Part shown: in pieces, positions 2,680 to 48,492 of the stretch | Layout of the letters: each line of letters begins with the position of its first letter | Position numbering within the stretch: position 1 is the first letter of the stretch | Assembly: GCA_018064905.1 (NCBI GenBank) | Contig: JAGHUJ010000094.1 | Location: 1-48,492, forward strand | Source of the DNA: Candidatus Treponema equifaecale | Lineage (GTDB): Bacteria > Spirochaetota > Spirochaetia > Treponematales > Treponemataceae | DNA: 48,492 bases | Direction: 5' to 3' | Notes under the pieces: model-generated | Databases searched by the model: none | The model's input: the letters and a program-made list of their open reading frames with translations, nothing else | Told to the model about the DNA's origin: nothing | Translations under genes and position numbers: made by a program

Positions 2680-4293
2680 ATGCCAAAGGAATTCAATGTA
2701 AATGGAACTTGTTTTCCATCAGAACATTATATGGTCGATATATCTGACCGACTTTCTCAGATTAAGGCAATGGTTGATAAGGGAAACTATTTCTGCATCA
2801 ACAAAGGCCGACAATATGGAAAAACCACGACTTTTTCGCTTTTAAAAAATTTTCTTGCTGAAGACTATTGCGTTTTTTCAATCAGTTTTGAAGGCTGTGA
2901 TGATGCATCTTTTGAAAACTTGGATTCTGTTGGAAGAATGTTTTTCTCAAGTCTGGAATCTGCAACCAAAAGAAAAACTCCTGTTAAAAATCTTTCTGGC
3001 AAAGCTAAAAAATTTCTGGAACGTCTGAATAAACCTTCTTTCTTGGATTCCATTTTTAATTCTGGCAGAAAAACTTTTGATACGCACAAAGCTATTATTG
3101 AACTGTGCAGTTTAAACGAAAAGCCTATTGTTGTGTTCATTGATGAGGTTGACCAGGCTGGAAGCTACGAATCTTTCTTAAAGTTTTTGGGACTCCTTCG
3201 TGATATGTATCTGGAAAGAAACAACATCAGCACTTTCCATTCTATAATTCTTGCTGGCGTATATGATGTAAAAAATCTTAAGCTCAAACTTCGCCCAACT
3301 GAAGAGCATCAGTACAATTCTCCGTGGAACATTGCAGCTGACTTCAACGTAAAAATGGAATTTGATGCGGCTGATATTTCCACAATGCTCCAAGATTATG
3401 AAAATGACCATAGGCTCGGAATCAACATTGGTGAAATTTCAGAGCTTCTGGAAGAATATACAGGTGGATATCCCTACCTTGTTTCTCGTATGTGCATGAT
3501 TATTGACGGTTCTGTTTCAAAGCTTCCTGATTATGATTTGAAGAAAGCCTGGACTAAACAAGGTGTGCTTGAAGCCGTTAAACTGATTCTGAAAGATGAA
3601 AATACGCTTTTTGATGATATGAGAAAAAAACTGGATGATTTTCCAGGGATGCGAAAGGCCATTTTCGATATTCTTTATGAAGGAAAAACGATCACTTTCA
3701 ATGCCTATGACAAGGATTTGAATGTTGCAAAAATGTTCTGTTTTATAAAGGATGAAAATGGAAAGGTTGCTGTTGCAAACAGAATTTTTGAGGTTTGGTT
3801 CTACAATCTTTTTGTTTCTGAAGCTTCAAAGTCTGATGAAATCTTTTCTGAAGGCTCTAAGGACAAGGTTCTTTTCATTAAAAATGGCGAACTTGACATG
3901 CCGCTGATTTTGGAGAGGTTCATTGTTCATTTTAATGACATTTATGGCGACAAGGATGAAAAATTTGTTGAAAAAGAAGGTCGTAAATATTTTTTGTTCT
4001 TCATAAAACCAATCATCAACGGCACTGGAAACTACTACATTGAAGCCCAGACTCGTGACGAGCGCAGAACGGATGTAATCATTGATTACCTTGGCCATCA
4101 GTATGTGGTTGAGTTGAAAATCTGGCATGGCGCAAAATATAACGAAAATGGTGAAAACCAGCTGATTGAATATCTGGATTCGCTTCATAAAGACACTGGT
4201 TACATGCTCACCTTCAACTTCAATAAAAATAAGTCATCCGAAGTTAAAAAAACTGAAATTCAAGGCAAAACCGTCTACGAAGCCTTTGTATAA
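2680..4293 (+). CDS. AAA-type ATPase with C-terminal PD-(D/E)XK nuclease-like domain
   Basis: 537 residues. The N-terminus has a P-loop (NKGRQYGKTTT, ~47-57) and a Walker B-like strand (PIVVFIDEVDQAG, ~148). The C-terminus (~430-537) has the spacing of a PD-(D/E)XK fold: RRTDVIIDY followed by VVELKIW, supplying the Asp and ELK active-site residues, then a QLIEYLD helix. This matches a family of ATPase-nuclease proteins that is multi-copy in clostridia, Bacteroides and treponemes and whose biological role is not settled. It stands alone: it starts after a 117 bp gap with its own -10 box and is convergent with metA, the two stop codons being adjacent. There is no Shine-Dalgarno site. Family assignment is firm; function is not. 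Confidence 0.85.
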   Translation: MPKEFNVNGTCFPSEHYMVDISDRLSQIKAMVDKGNYFCINKGRQYGKTTTFSLLKNFLAEDYCVFSISFEGCDDASFENLDSVGRMFFSSLESATKRKTPVKNLSGKAKKFLERLNKPSFLDSIFNSGRKTFDTHKAIIELCSLNEKPIVVFIDEVDQAGSYESFLKFLGLLRDMYLERNNISTFHSIILAGVYDVKNLKLKLRPTEEHQYNSPWNIAADFNVKMEFDAADISTMLQDYENDHRLGINIGEISELLEEYTGGYPYLVSRMCMIIDGSVSKLPDYDLKKAWTKQGVLEAVKLILKDENTLFDDMRKKLDDFPGMRKAIFDILYEGKTITFNAYDKDLNVAKMFCFIKDENGKVAVANRIFEVWFYNLFVSEASKSDEIFSEGSKDKVLFIKNGELDMPLILERFIVHFNDIYGDKDEKFVEKEGRKYFLFFIKPIINGTGNYYIEAQTRDERRTDVIIDYLGHQYVVELKIWHGAKYNENGENQLIEYLDSLHKDTGYMLTFNFNKNKSSEVKKTEIQGKTVYEAFV

Positions 4294-9691: not shown

Positions 9692-9706
9692 AAGGTCACC
9701 GCACCC

Positions 9707-9832
9707 CCCAAGAATTGTCATCTCGACCCCAAGAATTGTCATCTCGACCCCAAGAATTGTCATCTTGACCCCAAGAATTGTCATCTCGAGCGTAAGGATT
9801 GTCACCGTGAGCGCAGGGATTGTCATCTCGAG
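9707..9832. repeat. six tandem copies of a 21-bp unit
   Basis: Exact 21-bp phasing at 9707, 9728, 9749, 9770, 9791 and 9812. The first four units are nearly identical (AAGAATTGTCATCTCGAC core); the last two are diverged (GTAAGGATTGTCACCGTGAG type). The array ends in CGAGCGCAGTCGAGAGATCT, the end of the TGTCAT..CTCGAG dispersed palindromic element, so part of a repeat element appears to have been amplified. It fills the gap between two convergent genes. Confidence 0.85.
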
Positions 9833-17552: not shown

Positions 17553-19238
17553 ATGTTTAGTGACATCGAAATTGCACAGCAGAACAAAATGGCTCCAATC
17601 ACCGAAATTGCCGCAAAAATCGGTATTCCGGAAGAAAACCTGGAGCCATTCGGACATTATAAGGCAAAAATCAACATGGCACAGCTTCGTGCATTTCAGA
17701 AAAAGGCCGAAGATCCTGCAAACCGTGGAAAACTGATTCTCACTACAGCCGTAACACCAACACCAGCCGGCGAAGGAAAATCCACAGTTTCAATCGCTTT
17801 GGGTGATGGACTGAACAAAATCGGAAAGAAAGCTGTAATTGCTCTCCGTGAACCTTCACTTGGACCATGTTTCGGTGTAAAGGGCGGTGCCTGCGGTGGA
17901 GGTTATGCTCAGATTGTACCAATGGAAGACATCAATCTGCATTTTACAGGTGACATCCACGCAATTTCCATTGCAAACAATCTCATGTCTGCAATCATCG
18001 ACAACCACATTCACCAGACAAATGCACTTCGCATTGACCCACGCACAATTACATGGAAACGATGCGTAGACCTGAATGACCGTGCCCTCAGAAACATCAA
18101 CATTGGTTTTGGTGGCCGCCTTGACGGTGTTCCACGCGAGGACCACTTTACAATTGCAGTTGCATCTGAGCTTATGGCAGTTGTTTGTCTTTCAACTTCA
18201 ATTACAGACCTTAAGCGAAGAATCGACAATATTACAATCGCCCAGACCTATGACAAGCGTCCTGTAAAATTTGGTGAGCTTAAATGTACAGGTGCAATTG
18301 CCACACTTTTAAAAGACGCAATCAAGCCAAATCTTGTACAGACTTTGGAAGAAAATCCGGTATTCGTTCACGGTGGACCATTTGCAAACATTGCTCAGGG
18401 AACAAACTCTGTAAATGCAACAATCTCAGCTCTTGCAACTGGCGACTATGTTGTAACGGAAGCAGGATTTGCCGCTGACTTAGGTGCAGAAAAATTCATG
18501 GATATTAAATGTCGTGCTGCTGGAATTTCACCAAGCGTAGTTGTAATTGTTGCAACAGTCCGCGCTCTTAAAATGCATGGTGGAATGGCAAAGGCAGATC
18601 TTTCAACACCAAGCACAGTAGCCCTTGAGCGCGGCTTTGAAAACCTGGCTGTTCATATTGAAAATATCGCAAAATTCGGTGTGCCATCAGTGGTTGCCGT
18701 AAATAAATTTGTCACAGACACAGAAGAAGAACTTCAGCTTCTTCAGAAACTTTGTGAGCTTAAGGGTGCAAAGGCTGTTCTCTGTGAAGGCTGGGGAAAA
18801 GGCGGCGAAGGTGCAATGGAACTTGCAAAGGTTGTTGCAGAAGTTGCAGATTCAAACAAAGCCGAATTCCATTATTTGTATCAGTCAAATCTTTCTTTTG
18901 TTGAAAAAATTAAATTGCTTGCAAAGGAAATTTATCGCGCAAAGGATGTAGAAATTCCTGCAAATGTAGTTAAAAAGCTTCGTGAATATGAAGAACAGGG
19001 CTACAAGGATCTTCCAATCTGTGTTGCCAAGACTCAGAACTCAATCAGCCATGATCCAAAATTGATGGGAGCGCCAAAGGATTATGTTTTCCCTGTGCGT
19101 GACGTTCAGCTCTATTCCGGGGCAGGATTTGTGGTAGTTCTTGCAGGCGAAATAATGACAATGCCAGGCCTTCCAAAAATGCCAGCCGCCCTCAACATAG
19201 ACATTGACGACGACGGCCACATTTCGGGCTTGTTCTAA
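17553..19238 (+). CDS. fhs: formate-tetrahydrofolate ligase
   Basis: 561 residues, full length. It makes 10-formyl-THF from formate, THF and ATP. Clear family motifs: P-loop TPTPAGEGKSTVSIALGDGL (~65-85), REPSLGPCFGVKGGACGGGY, LHFTGDIHAI, HQTNALRIDPRTITWKR, VHGGPFANIAQGTNS and the C-terminal LYSGAGFVVVLAGEIMTMPG. It follows aroA by 3 bp with AAGGAA as ribosome site. A 10-formyl-THF deformylase (purU) lies 2.2 kb away on the other strand, so both directions of formyl-folate metabolism are encoded here. Ends at a dispersed repeat that could terminate transcription. Confidence 0.97.
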   Translation: MFSDIEIAQQNKMAPITEIAAKIGIPEENLEPFGHYKAKINMAQLRAFQKKAEDPANRGKLILTTAVTPTPAGEGKSTVSIALGDGLNKIGKKAVIALREPSLGPCFGVKGGACGGGYAQIVPMEDINLHFTGDIHAISIANNLMSAIIDNHIHQTNALRIDPRTITWKRCVDLNDRALRNINIGFGGRLDGVPREDHFTIAVASELMAVVCLSTSITDLKRRIDNITIAQTYDKRPVKFGELKCTGAIATLLKDAIKPNLVQTLEENPVFVHGGPFANIAQGTNSVNATISALATGDYVVTEAGFAADLGAEKFMDIKCRAAGISPSVVVIVATVRALKMHGGMAKADLSTPSTVALERGFENLAVHIENIAKFGVPSVVAVNKFVTDTEEELQLLQKLCELKGAKAVLCEGWGKGGEGAMELAKVVAEVADSNKAEFHYLYQSNLSFVEKIKLLAKEIYRAKDVEIPANVVKKLREYEEQGYKDLPICVAKTQNSISHDPKLMGAPKDYVFPVRDVQLYSGAGFVVVLAGEIMTMPGLPKMPAALNIDIDDDGHISGLF

Positions 19239-19434
19239 AACTTGTCATTTCGACCGAATCACAAGCAAAAAAACTTGTCATTTCGACCGAATCACAAGCG
19301 AAAAAAACTTGTCATTTCGACCGAATTACAAGCGAAAAAAACTTGTCATTTCGACCGAAGCACTAAGTGCGTAGTGGAGAAATCTATCAACAACAGAAAT
19401 GGATCTCTCGACTGCGCTCGAGATGACATTTTTT
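19239..19434. repeat. tandem and palindromic TGTCATTTCGA repeat element
   Basis: Three tandem copies of a ~34-bp unit (AACTTGTCATTTCGACCGAA, then TCACAAGC and an A run) lead into one full palindromic element. That element has TGTCATTTCGACCGAAGCAC at one end and TCGAGATGACA, followed by a T run, at the other. The T run could make it a terminator for aroA-fhs. Related half elements occur at 9833-9848, 20307-20334 and 37455. Confidence 0.8.
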
Positions 19435-45761: not shown

Positions 45762-45899
45762 ATACAGAAAAGTACGAAATTCAAATAAATTTGGGCTATT
45801 GGAAATTTTTTTGTAATAAGTGAAAAGGAAACGAAAATAAATTTGCTTTTTGACACTTTGTTCCGTATTTTTATTATAGAAAAAAATTTGGAGTGTAGT

Positions 45900-46718
45900 T
45901 TGAAAAAATTGAAGCTAAATCTTATATTTCAAAAACTGGAGAAAATCAGGACCGAATTGAGCAAAAGTCTTAAAACTCTGGAAAATCGTCTGAAAACAGC
46001 TCCGGCTGGCAGTGTAAGAATCAGCGTCTCCCATGGTGTTCCGCAGTATTATATTATTGAAGAAAAATCACAAAAAAATGGAAGATATGTGCCAAAGTCG
46101 GAAATTGAACTGGTGAAAAAACTGGTGCAAAAATCATACGATTTAAAAGTTGCAACGGCTATGAAAAAAGATTTGCGGCAAGTGGAATCATTTCTAAAGA
46201 AAGTGAACTTGGATTACGGACAATTTTACGAGAAACTTCCTGCCGTGGCGAAAGAATTGGTAAAGCCAGAGTTTGTATCGGTTGAACGCTTTGCTCAGGA
46301 CTGGTGCAAGGTTCACTATGATGGCAAAAAATTTGAGGAAGGCGCACCGGAATTTTATACGGCGGCAGGTGTGCGTGTTCGTTCTAAGTCTGAAATAATA
46401 ATTGCTGATGCGTTGAGCAGATTCGGTGTGCCTTATCGCTATGAATTTCCAGTTGAGCTGAAGAATGCGGTCGGCAATTTTGTAAAACTTTATCCAGATT
46501 TTTGTTGTCTGAATGTTTCCACTGGTGAAGAGTTTTTATGGGAGCATTTTGGACGCATGGATGACGGTGACTACGCTGCAAAAACTGCAAGGAAGCTGGA
46601 TTTGTATCAGCGGAATGACATTTTTCCTGGAGAAAAGCTGCTGATGACAATGGAAACTTCTGAATTTCCGCTGAACAGTAAAAATGTGGAAAGAATTATC
46701 AGGAAATATCTGATGTAA
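45900..46718 (+). CDS. conserved protein with a PD-(D/E)XK-like C-terminal region
   Basis: 272 residues from the TTG at 45900, chosen for TTGGAG 6 nt upstream; the open frame extends to a TTG at 45843 without a site. The first half is charged and helical (FQKLEKIRTELSKSLKTLEN). From ~170: RVRSKSEIIIADALSRFGVP, YEFPVEL, KLYPDFCCLN, EEFLWEHFGRMDD, then LLMTMETSEFPLN. E..PDF..E-x-WEH follows the order of a restriction-endonuclease-like fold with His in place of the usual Lys. Similar proteins are common in clostridia without a known role. Nuclease activity is a guess. Confidence 0.75.
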   Translation: MKKLKLNLIFQKLEKIRTELSKSLKTLENRLKTAPAGSVRISVSHGVPQYYIIEEKSQKNGRYVPKSEIELVKKLVQKSYDLKVATAMKKDLRQVESFLKKVNLDYGQFYEKLPAVAKELVKPEFVSVERFAQDWCKVHYDGKKFEEGAPEFYTAAGVRVRSKSEIIIADALSRFGVPYRYEFPVELKNAVGNFVKLYPDFCCLNVSTGEEFLWEHFGRMDDGDYAAKTARKLDLYQRNDIFPGEKLLMTMETSEFPLNSKNVERIIRKYLM

Positions 46719-46747: not shown

Positions 46748-47040
46748 TTTACGGAGAAATATAAGGAAATGCCAGAATGCTCCGTAAAATTTGTTCACTT
46801 TTGGGAAAGAGGCAGGCGCTTTTGGACAGATTTTACGGAGAAAAATGGCATTTTGTGAAAAATATCCGTAAAATCGCCGCAGTTTTGGACGGGGAGCAGG
46901 GAATTTTACAGAAAAATTACGGAGAAATTTTAGAAAGTGTAAGAAATCTCCGTAAAATTGCGGTTGAGACCAGAACAAATCCCCTGCGACCAATGGAATT
47001 TTACGGAGAAAATTAAGAAAAACTGAAAATGCTCCGTAAA
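46748..47040. repeat. four-unit tandem array of ~84-bp palindromic repeats
   Basis: Units start at 46748, 46831, 46917 and 47000 (spacing 83, 86, 83). Each begins TTTACGGAG (or TTACGGAGA) and has CTCCGTAAA, or TCCGTAAAA, 22-25 nt further on, so each can fold as a hairpin. Arms are conserved; loops and the ~43-bp spacers are not. The last unit is followed by a T run. Frames on both strands are translations of the repeat (FYGE..LRKI) and broken by stops. No gene found from 46719 to 47269. Confidence 0.85.
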
Positions 47041-47136
47041 TTGGGCTTTTTTTAAGTTTGCCTGCTCAATTGTAACTCCTTTGAAATTTCATTATATTTA
47101 TTGAAGAAAATGTATATTTTTGAAAAGCACTAGCGA

Positions 47137-47236
47137 TGTGAACGGCGCGGATGCGGCCACTGGACTGAGCGTAAGCGAGGGAAGCGGCTGGAGCGGATGC
47201 GGAACCTGTAACGTAGCGGCCCGAAGCGAAGCGTAG
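47137..47236. repeat. GC-rich REP-like element before gpmI
   Basis: It contains GGATGCGG twice, GCGGCCACTGG and GCGGCTGGAG, AGCGTAAGCGAGGGAAGCGG and CCGAAGCGAAGCGTAGGGAA. Composition is far from the AT-rich flanks. The gpmI ribosome site AAAGGTGG follows it. Confidence 0.6.
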
Positions 47237-47269
47237 GGAAGTGCCCAGATTATAAAGGTGGTGCAAATT

Positions 47270-48492
47270 ATGGCAGACACAATGCATGCTTTGGAGAAAA
47301 ATCCAAACTGGAAAGGCCGTCGTGGTCCTGTTGTCCTTGTTATTATGGACGGCGTTGGATATGGAAAATATGAACAGGGGGATGCTGTAAAGGCTTCTAA
47401 AATGAAGTACTTGGACTGGTTCACTGCTAACTGTCCTCACACTCAGCTTAAGGCTCACGGTACTGCTGTTGGTCTTCCTTCTGATGATGATATGGGTAAC
47501 TCTGAAGTTGGTCACAATGCTATTGGTTGTGGTCGTGTTTTTGCTCAGGGTGCTAAGCTTGTTGGTGAATCAATTTCTTCTGGAACAATGTTTGAAGGCG
47601 CAACTTGGAAGAAACTTGTAAAAAATGTTCAGGACAAGAATTCTGCTTTCCACTTGATTGGTCTTGTTTCTGATGGTAACGTTCACTCACATATTGATCA
47701 CCTTAAGGCTATGGTTGCACAGGCTCACAAGGAAGGTGTTAAGACTTTGCGCGTTCATGCTTTGCTTGATGGCCGTGATGTTCCTCCAACTTCTGCTCTT
47801 GAATATTTTGAGCCACTTGAAAAATATCTTGCTGAATTTACTGATGCAGACTATCAGATTGCTTCTGGTGGTGGTCGTATGTACATCACTATGGACCGTT
47901 ACGGTGCTGATTGGAGCATGGTTGAACGCGGATGGCATGCACATGTTCTGGCTGATGGCCGCCAGTTTGCGTCTAGCACTGAAGCTATCAACACTTACCG
48001 TGCAGAAAACGGTGGTCTTTTGGATCAGGATATGCACGAATTCGTAGTTGCTAAAGACGGAAAACCAGTTGGTCCAATCGTTGACGGTGACTCTGTAATC
48101 TTCTTCAATTTCCGTGGTGACCGTTCTTTGGAAATCACTGCTGCTTTTGAAGAAGACAACTTCCCACACTTTGACCGCGTACGCCGCCCTGCTGTTGAAT
48201 ATGCTGGTATGATGGAATACGATGGCGACAACCACAAGCCAGCTCAGTTCCTTGTAAACCCACCAAGCATTGACCGCACAATGGGTGAATATCTTACAAA
48301 AACAGGCGTTCATCTTATGGCAATTTCTGAAACTCAGAAATATGGTCACGTAACATACTTCTTCAACGGTAACCGCCCAGGCGAATTCGACAAGAATCTT
48401 GAAACTTATGTTGAAATTCCTTCTGATGTTGTTCCATTTGAGCAGCGCCCATGGATGAAATGTGCTGAAATCACAGACAAAGTAATCGAAGC
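47270..48492 (+). CDS. gpmI: 2,3-bisphosphoglycerate-independent phosphoglycerate mutase, 3' end outside the window
   Basis: Open from the ATG at 47270 (AAAGGTGG ahead) to the window edge, ~407 codons of the usual ~510-550. It interconverts 3- and 2-phosphoglycerate in glycolysis using two metal ions. Motifs: VLVIMDGVGYG with the metal Asp (~29), MGNSEVGHNAIGCGR with the phosphorylated Ser (~77), LIGLVSDGNVHSHIDHL, HALLDGRDVPPTSA, ASGGGRMYITMDRY and FFNFRGDRSLEI. The metal-binding C-terminal motifs lie beyond the window. The codon use is typical of a highly expressed gene (GGT, GTT, ACT, AAC). Confidence 0.96.
   Translation, partial: MADTMHALEKNPNWKGRRGPVVLVIMDGVGYGKYEQGDAVKASKMKYLDWFTANCPHTQLKAHGTAVGLPSDDDMGNSEVGHNAIGCGRVFAQGAKLVGESISSGTMFEGATWKKLVKNVQDKNSAFHLIGLVSDGNVHSHIDHLKAMVAQAHKEGVKTLRVHALLDGRDVPPTSALEYFEPLEKYLAEFTDADYQIASGGGRMYITMDRYGADWSMVERGWHAHVLADGRQFASSTEAINTYRAENGGLLDQDMHEFVVAKDGKPVGPIVDGDSVIFFNFRGDRSLEITAAFEEDNFPHFDRVRRPAVEYAGMMEYDGDNHKPAQFLVNPPSIDRTMGEYLTKTGVHLMAISETQKYGHVTYFFNGNRPGEFDKNLETYVEIPSDVVPFEQRPWMKCAEITDKVIE

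Follow-up and report, generated by a model that had tools for sequence, protein, structure and literature searches.

What does a regular array of inverted repeats do between two genes of a Treponema genome, and does it act as DNA, as RNA or as a stretch of coding sequence? The question is raised by one end of the window, i.e. the whole stretch of 48,492 nucleotides (48.5 kb) of Candidatus Treponema equifaecale analysed here, in which a sequence-only reading had described a four-unit, 84-bp array of eight alternating arms and had offered a structured RNA or a protein-binding array as explanations.

Geometry of the array

The array is real, its four units starting exactly 84, 84 and 84 bp apart and the two arms of each unit lying 32 bp apart, start to start, in all four units. 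The arms alternate in direction (46748>, 46780<, 46832>, 46864<, 46916>, 46948<, 47000> and 47032<), so that the unit starts first given as 46748 and 47000 stand, while 46831 and 46917 are corrected to 46832 and 46916. Six of the eight arms are exact, those at 46864 and 46916 having one mismatch each (Table 1), and the 9-mer has no further exact copy in the window. With up to one mismatch allowed, the window holds 24 arm matches against 6.8 +- 2.5 expected, a number reached in 0 of 100 shuffles.

Table 1. Features of the window, and further arrays with the same arm in the source genome (contigs C7 and C105)
Feature	Position	Strand	Remark
Gene of the unnamed family	45900..46718	+	272 aa; probable cognate array-binding protein
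Beta-sheet segment, codons 30-65 (GSVRISVSHGVPQYYIIEEKSQKNGRYV)	45987..46094	+	proposed DNA-reading part; strongest arm-sequence correlation
Array unit 1	46748..46788	none	TTTACGGAG - 23 bp - CTCCGTAAA
Array unit 2	46832..46872	none	right arm ATCCGTAAA (1 mismatch)
Array unit 3	46916..46956	none	left arm ATTACGGAG (1 mismatch)
Array unit 4	47000..47040	none	
Phosphoglycerate mutase-like ORF, downstream neighbour	47258..48490	+	ATG at 47270; runs off contig
Same-arm array, 5 units	C7:8320-8696		nearly reaches contig end
Same-arm array, 3 units	C105:45921-46129		

A nuclease-like gene family next to the array

The sequence-only reading did not relate the array to the upstream gene, whose end lies 30 bp away. 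The open frame of this gene begins at 45843, and a TTG start at 45900 was inferred because of an upstream GGAG and the homologues. The product belongs to a multicopy family, found in 57 of the 196 genomes of the genus with up to 13 copies per genome and four in the source genome, which has no match in Pfam, NCBIfam or PHROG. A confident AlphaFold2 model (mean pLDDT 93) gives a helix at residues 6-32, beta strands at 38-44, 47-53 and 62-64, a long helix at 66-101 and a PD-(D/E)XK fold at about 134-272. The C-terminal part aligns with TnsA (Z 8.1), Bax1 (8.0), Vsr (6.8) and VRR_NUC (6.7), all modest Z values, and residues E165, D200, E215 and H216 are near-invariant in the family. By its modelled alpha-beta core and conserved acidic residues, the family belongs to the PD-(D/E)XK nuclease superfamily.

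The fold search with the N-terminal domain returned only weak chromodomain-like and coiled-coil matches, none of them confident. Its helical hairpin matches the coiled coil of TasH (Z 8.9 over approx. 65-70 residues), a score that unrelated coiled coils equal, and Pfam Nop had no match among 47 family members. The nuclease domain matches the C-terminal domain of the PADLOC candidate PDC-S68 (E ~4e-24), the match covering only profile positions 1101-1218 of 1221; PDC-S68 proteins are about 1,200 aa long, and their remainder is missing from the 272-aa family, which has an N-terminal domain of its own. The nuclease domain also forms the end of helicase-like plasmid proteins and occurs in nine relatives from viral contigs, every one of which matches the nuclease domain only. 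Two short homologues, L189 (G258) and L201 (G118), with ORFs of 165 and 190 aa, have the N-terminal domain without the nuclease. No conserved partner gene was found in the neighbourhood of the family genes.

Arrays accompany the family, each with its own arm

Arrays of this design go with around 80 % of the Treponema homologues, in nearly all cases immediately upstream. Of about 51 distinct Treponema loci whose upstream flank was long enough, 40 have at least five alternating arms there, and a targeted rescan added one to three upstream pairs at five more (L136, L141, L165, L171 and L181), a single pair lying approx. 20-60 bp before the start codon in L141 and L171. Among the control tiles 1 of 109 scored, and it was itself a phased array. 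Homologues from Clostridia scoring above 190 bits had upstream arrays in 11 of 17 cases, as did one Clostridia locus outside these 17 (L188, G419). At most of the Treponema loci the upstream arrays end no more than about 140 bp from the start codon (at one, about 240 bp). The window copy is atypical, since its array lies downstream of the gene and none upstream; L170 has the same arrangement, and L166 has arrays on both sides. A further Clostridia homologue, L205 (G375), has long 53-54 bp arrays both downstream and upstream, the latter beyond -800.

Each locus or clade of the Treponema genes has its own arm sequence within the same architecture, i.e. TACGGATAA, TTACGGCTAA, TTACGGACG, CTACGGACT, TTCCGACTTAAC, CCCACTTAAC, TTCCAACAA, TACCTACAG, AGTCATATA, TTTACATAT, TTTACCACT and others. 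The more similar two proteins are, the more similar are their arms (Mantel rho 0.43, p=5e-4), which holds also among pairs with less than 50 % identity (rho 0.29). The highest partial correlation falls on residues 21-60, the beta-sheet segment, although part of this correlation could come from shared descent of the neighbouring DNA. On the tree of the C-terminal part the arm class (TAC or TCC) changes twice, compared with 8.0 times for shuffled labels. At residue 49, E or D accompanies eight of nine TCC arms and not one of the 22 TAC arms, which is suggestive of a recognition code pairing Q49 with TAC and E49 with TCC that would rest on only about two independent changes. At L117, L118, L119 and L123-L125, the TACGGATAA units have in common an inner directional CACTnTTTACTC-like motif, perhaps a second contact.

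Spacing in helical turns and an in-phase A/T bias

The distances between units are quantised. They cluster at 53, 63, 74, 84, 95, 105, 115 and 126 bp, i.e. at multiples of 10.5 bp (Rayleigh R=0.84, p ~2e-29, for 94 distinct values from 44 arrays). Taking one value per arm type (n=41) gave R=0.88 (p ~2e-14), compared with a 99.9th percentile of 0.49 for a null maximised over periods; Clostridia arrays alone gave R=0.85 (p=4e-6) and TACGGAG arrays alone R=0.86. The p-values are approximate, because the loci are related by descent. Array detection permitted any gap from 12 to 110 bp and is therefore not the source of the 10.5-bp phasing. In helical terms, the half-sites of a pair lie about three turns apart and successive pairs 5 to 12 whole turns apart.

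The DNA outside the arms follows the same period. Its A/T content oscillates at 10.5 bp, in phase with the arms, with an amplitude of 0.060 against a maximum of 0.010 in 300 shuffles, with peaks in the centre of the unit and some 21, 31 and 42 bp to either side. Peaks adjoining the arms might belong to a longer recognition motif, which cannot hold for those at 0, +-31 and +-42. The window array shows the oscillation on its own (1 of 300 shuffles as high), and the arrays with its arm in two other genomes, described below, have it in the same phase. Such an oscillation is the expected look of DNA bent around a protein. Across arm types no universal inner motif was seen beyond the central A/T and G/C near +-5 bp.

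Constraint acts on DNA and on single arms

Do the paired arms hold a structure together? Compensated changes within units numbered 17, against 16.4 when partners were shuffled, and 139 positions had changed in one arm; the compensatory changes that selection for pairing should leave are thus missing, and the constraint acts on each arm singly. In the gene-linked array of three related species, whose genes are 82-95 % identical, the arms are 88-93 % and the rest of the array 47-66 % identical. Of the earlier proposal that arms are conserved and loops vary because structure is selected, the conservation is borne out and the constraint on pairing is not.

The absence of arm covariation and the spacing in DNA helical turns, which RNA hairpins would not need, led us to reject a structured RNA. 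We nevertheless considered an RNA system of the kind known from TIGR-Tas or type III toxin-antitoxin RNAs, with processing or binding of stem-loops in a transcript of the array, since the N-terminal helices align with TasH and stem-loop TIGR arrays, with variable palindromes and constant box C/D motifs, have been reported from a gut microbiome (PMC12045711). A small nuclease-like gene does adjoin the array, whose predicted fold is strong (z = -7), a low folding energy explained by the inverted repeats. As in TIGR-Tas stem-loop arrays, palindromic units with locus-specific arms stand beside a gene for a small protein in gut microbiomes. However, distances quantised at 10.5 bp would be unpaired linkers in an RNA, unrelated coiled coils score as well as TasH, Rfam had no match to the window array, and constant arms with variable loops are the inverse of stem-loop TIGR arrays (PMC12045711). 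TIGR-Tas arrays give rise to guides of approx. 36 nt, their variable spacers being flanked by constant box C/D motifs, and a universal inner motif was not found here. The family further differs in its PD-(D/E)XK domain, where TIGR-Tas has HNH or RuvC, in having no Pfam Nop match and in a constraint that is seen in the DNA. We regard an RNA system as very improbable.

A coding repeat of 28 residues, for which an intact frame might have been expected in relatives, is excluded because the periods there (82, 83, 93, 73, 53 and 62 bp) are not multiples of three and a 3-bp periodicity is absent (R(3)=0.04). The earlier idea of a protein-binding array, by contrast, is supported.

Arrays with the same arm elsewhere

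The source genome holds two more arrays with the arms and the 84-bp period of the window array, on other contigs (Table 1), and all three, with 12 units in total, are intergenic. Outside it, only one of the 195 genomes of the family has arrays with this arm, namely a Treponema MAG from horse faeces (G118) with five of them, and several more occur in the Lachnospiraceae MAG RUI574 (G195). Units are 82-84 and 93 bp apart in G118 and 53, 62-63 and 74-75 bp apart in RUI574, distances that are not multiples of three, yet lie in steps of about 10 bp. The RUI574 copies on contigs C38, C94 and C98 are mutually related. In this MAG phased TACGGAG arrays are present and a homologue of the nuclease-like family was not detectable. 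Many of the genomes compared are MAGs. A BLAST search of plasmids with the window array gave no match.

When the first arrays were compared for a common neighbouring gene, none emerged except a PF09820 pair in RUI574. At L092 (RUI574 C38), TTTACGGAG arrays at 744-845 and 3045-3274 flank an AAA-ATPase_like/PDDEXK_9 gene in direct orientation, with two inner units missing from one copy. AAA-ATPase_like PF09820 was rejected as array partner, an array being present at one of ten PF09820 loci, i.e. the original one. Single hairpins of around 39 nt with TTTACGGAG ends and longer stems were seen in other Treponema-type genomes (L056, L061, L062 and L039), and single TTTACGGAG-type arm pairs in two viral contigs (L064 and L065).

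Solo arrays, mobility and regulation

The arms of a resident gene copy also recur in arrays elsewhere in the genome, as for TTTACCACT in the source genome and TACGGATAA in G086, G099, G558 and G129. One such solo array is stable, since it occupies the same locus in three species approx. 91-93 % identical. On contig C179 of the source genome, two solo TTTACCACT arrays (L272 and L273) lie no more than a few kb from the cognate gene, one of them between pstS-like and pstC-like genes (named by eye from the sequence). Solo arrays are best read as probable extra binding sites, i.e. regulated neighbours, decoys or relics.

In the main rival explanation, the arrays owe their mobility or amplification to the nuclease-like protein and would be its non-autonomous intergenic offspring, similar to REP/BIME elements and RAYT (TnpA_REP). 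In both systems inverted repeats form arrays in intergenic DNA, a nuclease-type gene goes with a repeat type of its own, additional copies stand alone and the repeat types of relatives differ. The interrelated copies in RUI574 (C38, C94 and C98), a nuclease fold resembling TnsA among others (Z 8.1) and the lack of a partner gene beside the family also fit. Nevertheless, there are few arrays per genome (about 2-6, not hundreds), the locus shared by three species argues for slow spread, target-site duplications or element ends were not seen, and transposition does not explain the helical quantisation. The linked protein combines PD-(D/E)XK and beta-sheet domains instead of Y1/HUH; PF01797 (Y1) has one partial match at a contig edge in the source genome and none in G118. 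Furthermore, the arms are 9-bp split half-sites 32 bp apart, unlike the imperfect hairpins of REP/BIME, and the arrays differ from these in quantised spacing, in-phase A/T bias, low copy number (three dispersed arrays with 12 units in the source genome) and a position mainly upstream of the gene. A REP/RAYT-like origin therefore appears unlikely.

Alternatively, the protein might be an ordinary regulator with a small regulon, the arrays being its operators and the PD-(D/E)XK domain merely serving dimerisation or being a relic. Arrays or single units directly upstream of the gene and solo arrays in other intergenic regions, e.g. near the pst-like genes, agree with this, but the catalytic-type residues are almost invariant and solo arrays also lie near unrelated genes, sometimes right after a stop codon as in the window, which makes this explanation rather improbable as well.

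Proposed function and relation to known systems

We consider it probable that the window array serves, as double-stranded DNA, to dock the PD-(D/E)XK nuclease-like protein encoded next to it. A protein dimer would read both arms of the 41-bp unit through its N-terminal beta-sheet domains, and successive dimers would bind cooperatively on one face of bent or wrapped DNA. Such a cooperative, perhaps wrapped complex would repress the gene and may hold the nuclease. Because an array or a single unit usually lies no more than about 140 bp from the start codon, the likeliest consequence would be autorepression at the promoter and retention of the protein on the DNA beside its own gene. Self-regulation or sequestration would be the most likely role of the array. 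A defence or selfish role of the family is plausible, given a distribution that is multicopy, patchy and diverse in specificity. Points against the docking reading are the downstream position of the window array, the RUI574 arrays with no detectable homologue, a possible share of common descent in the arm-protein correlation and the lack of a confident fold match for the N-terminal domain.

A bolder reading, which we find doubtful, sees here a kind of single-gene system not described before, found in gut Spirochaetes and Clostridia, in which each family member co-evolves with a private, helically phased, bend-encoded array. The protein would form a wrapped complex on this array, which would serve as a DNA 'antitoxin' or switch and restrain the nuclease until it goes missing or is disrupted, e.g. 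by phage attack. If true, restraint of a nuclease by its array would represent a novel form of self-control or defence.

Multi-site cooperative operators and partition sites, such as phased Lrp-type sites and ParR-parC, likewise have repeated sites on one DNA face beside the gene for the protein that binds them, an arrangement conducive to wrapping or to cooperative assembly. Here, in contrast, dozens of private specificities occur in one nuclease-fold family with up to 13 copies per genome, and family members differ in unit spacing, with values between 5 and 12 turns. CRISPR arrays are marked by near-identical repeats, by spacers that are each unique and by cas genes; the repeat seen here is a split pair of 9-bp arms, and the spacers are often related copies within the array. 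Each part of the arrangement has precedents; what appears new is their combination, in which gene copies have private arms, the spacing is helically quantised, the A/T bias is in phase and the protein family is PD-(D/E)XK. In agreement with the earlier statement that no described family fits, we found no description of such arrays or of the family in a literature search confined mostly to freely available papers, which is no proof of novelty.

The locus ties an overlooked intergenic repeat to a widespread nuclease-like family that is nameless in Pfam, NCBIfam and PHROGs, and offers a natural panel in which one small, presumed beta-sheet reader comes with approx. 40 private specificities of 9 bp. 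With its in-phase A/T bias, the 10.5-bp quantisation is a bacterial counterpart to the sequence signature of nucleosomes, so that DNA wrapping can be tested directly.

Other repeats in the window

The phosphoglycerate mutase-like ORF downstream of the array is apparently unrelated to it. Between the two, at approx. 47130-47250, lies a GC-rich repeat-like stretch with GCGGATGCGG motifs. Two further tandem repeats, at 19154-19363 (34 bp x 3.8) and 9706-9831 (21 bp x 6), have a GTCATYTCGA core in common, and short inverted pieces alternate in the former.
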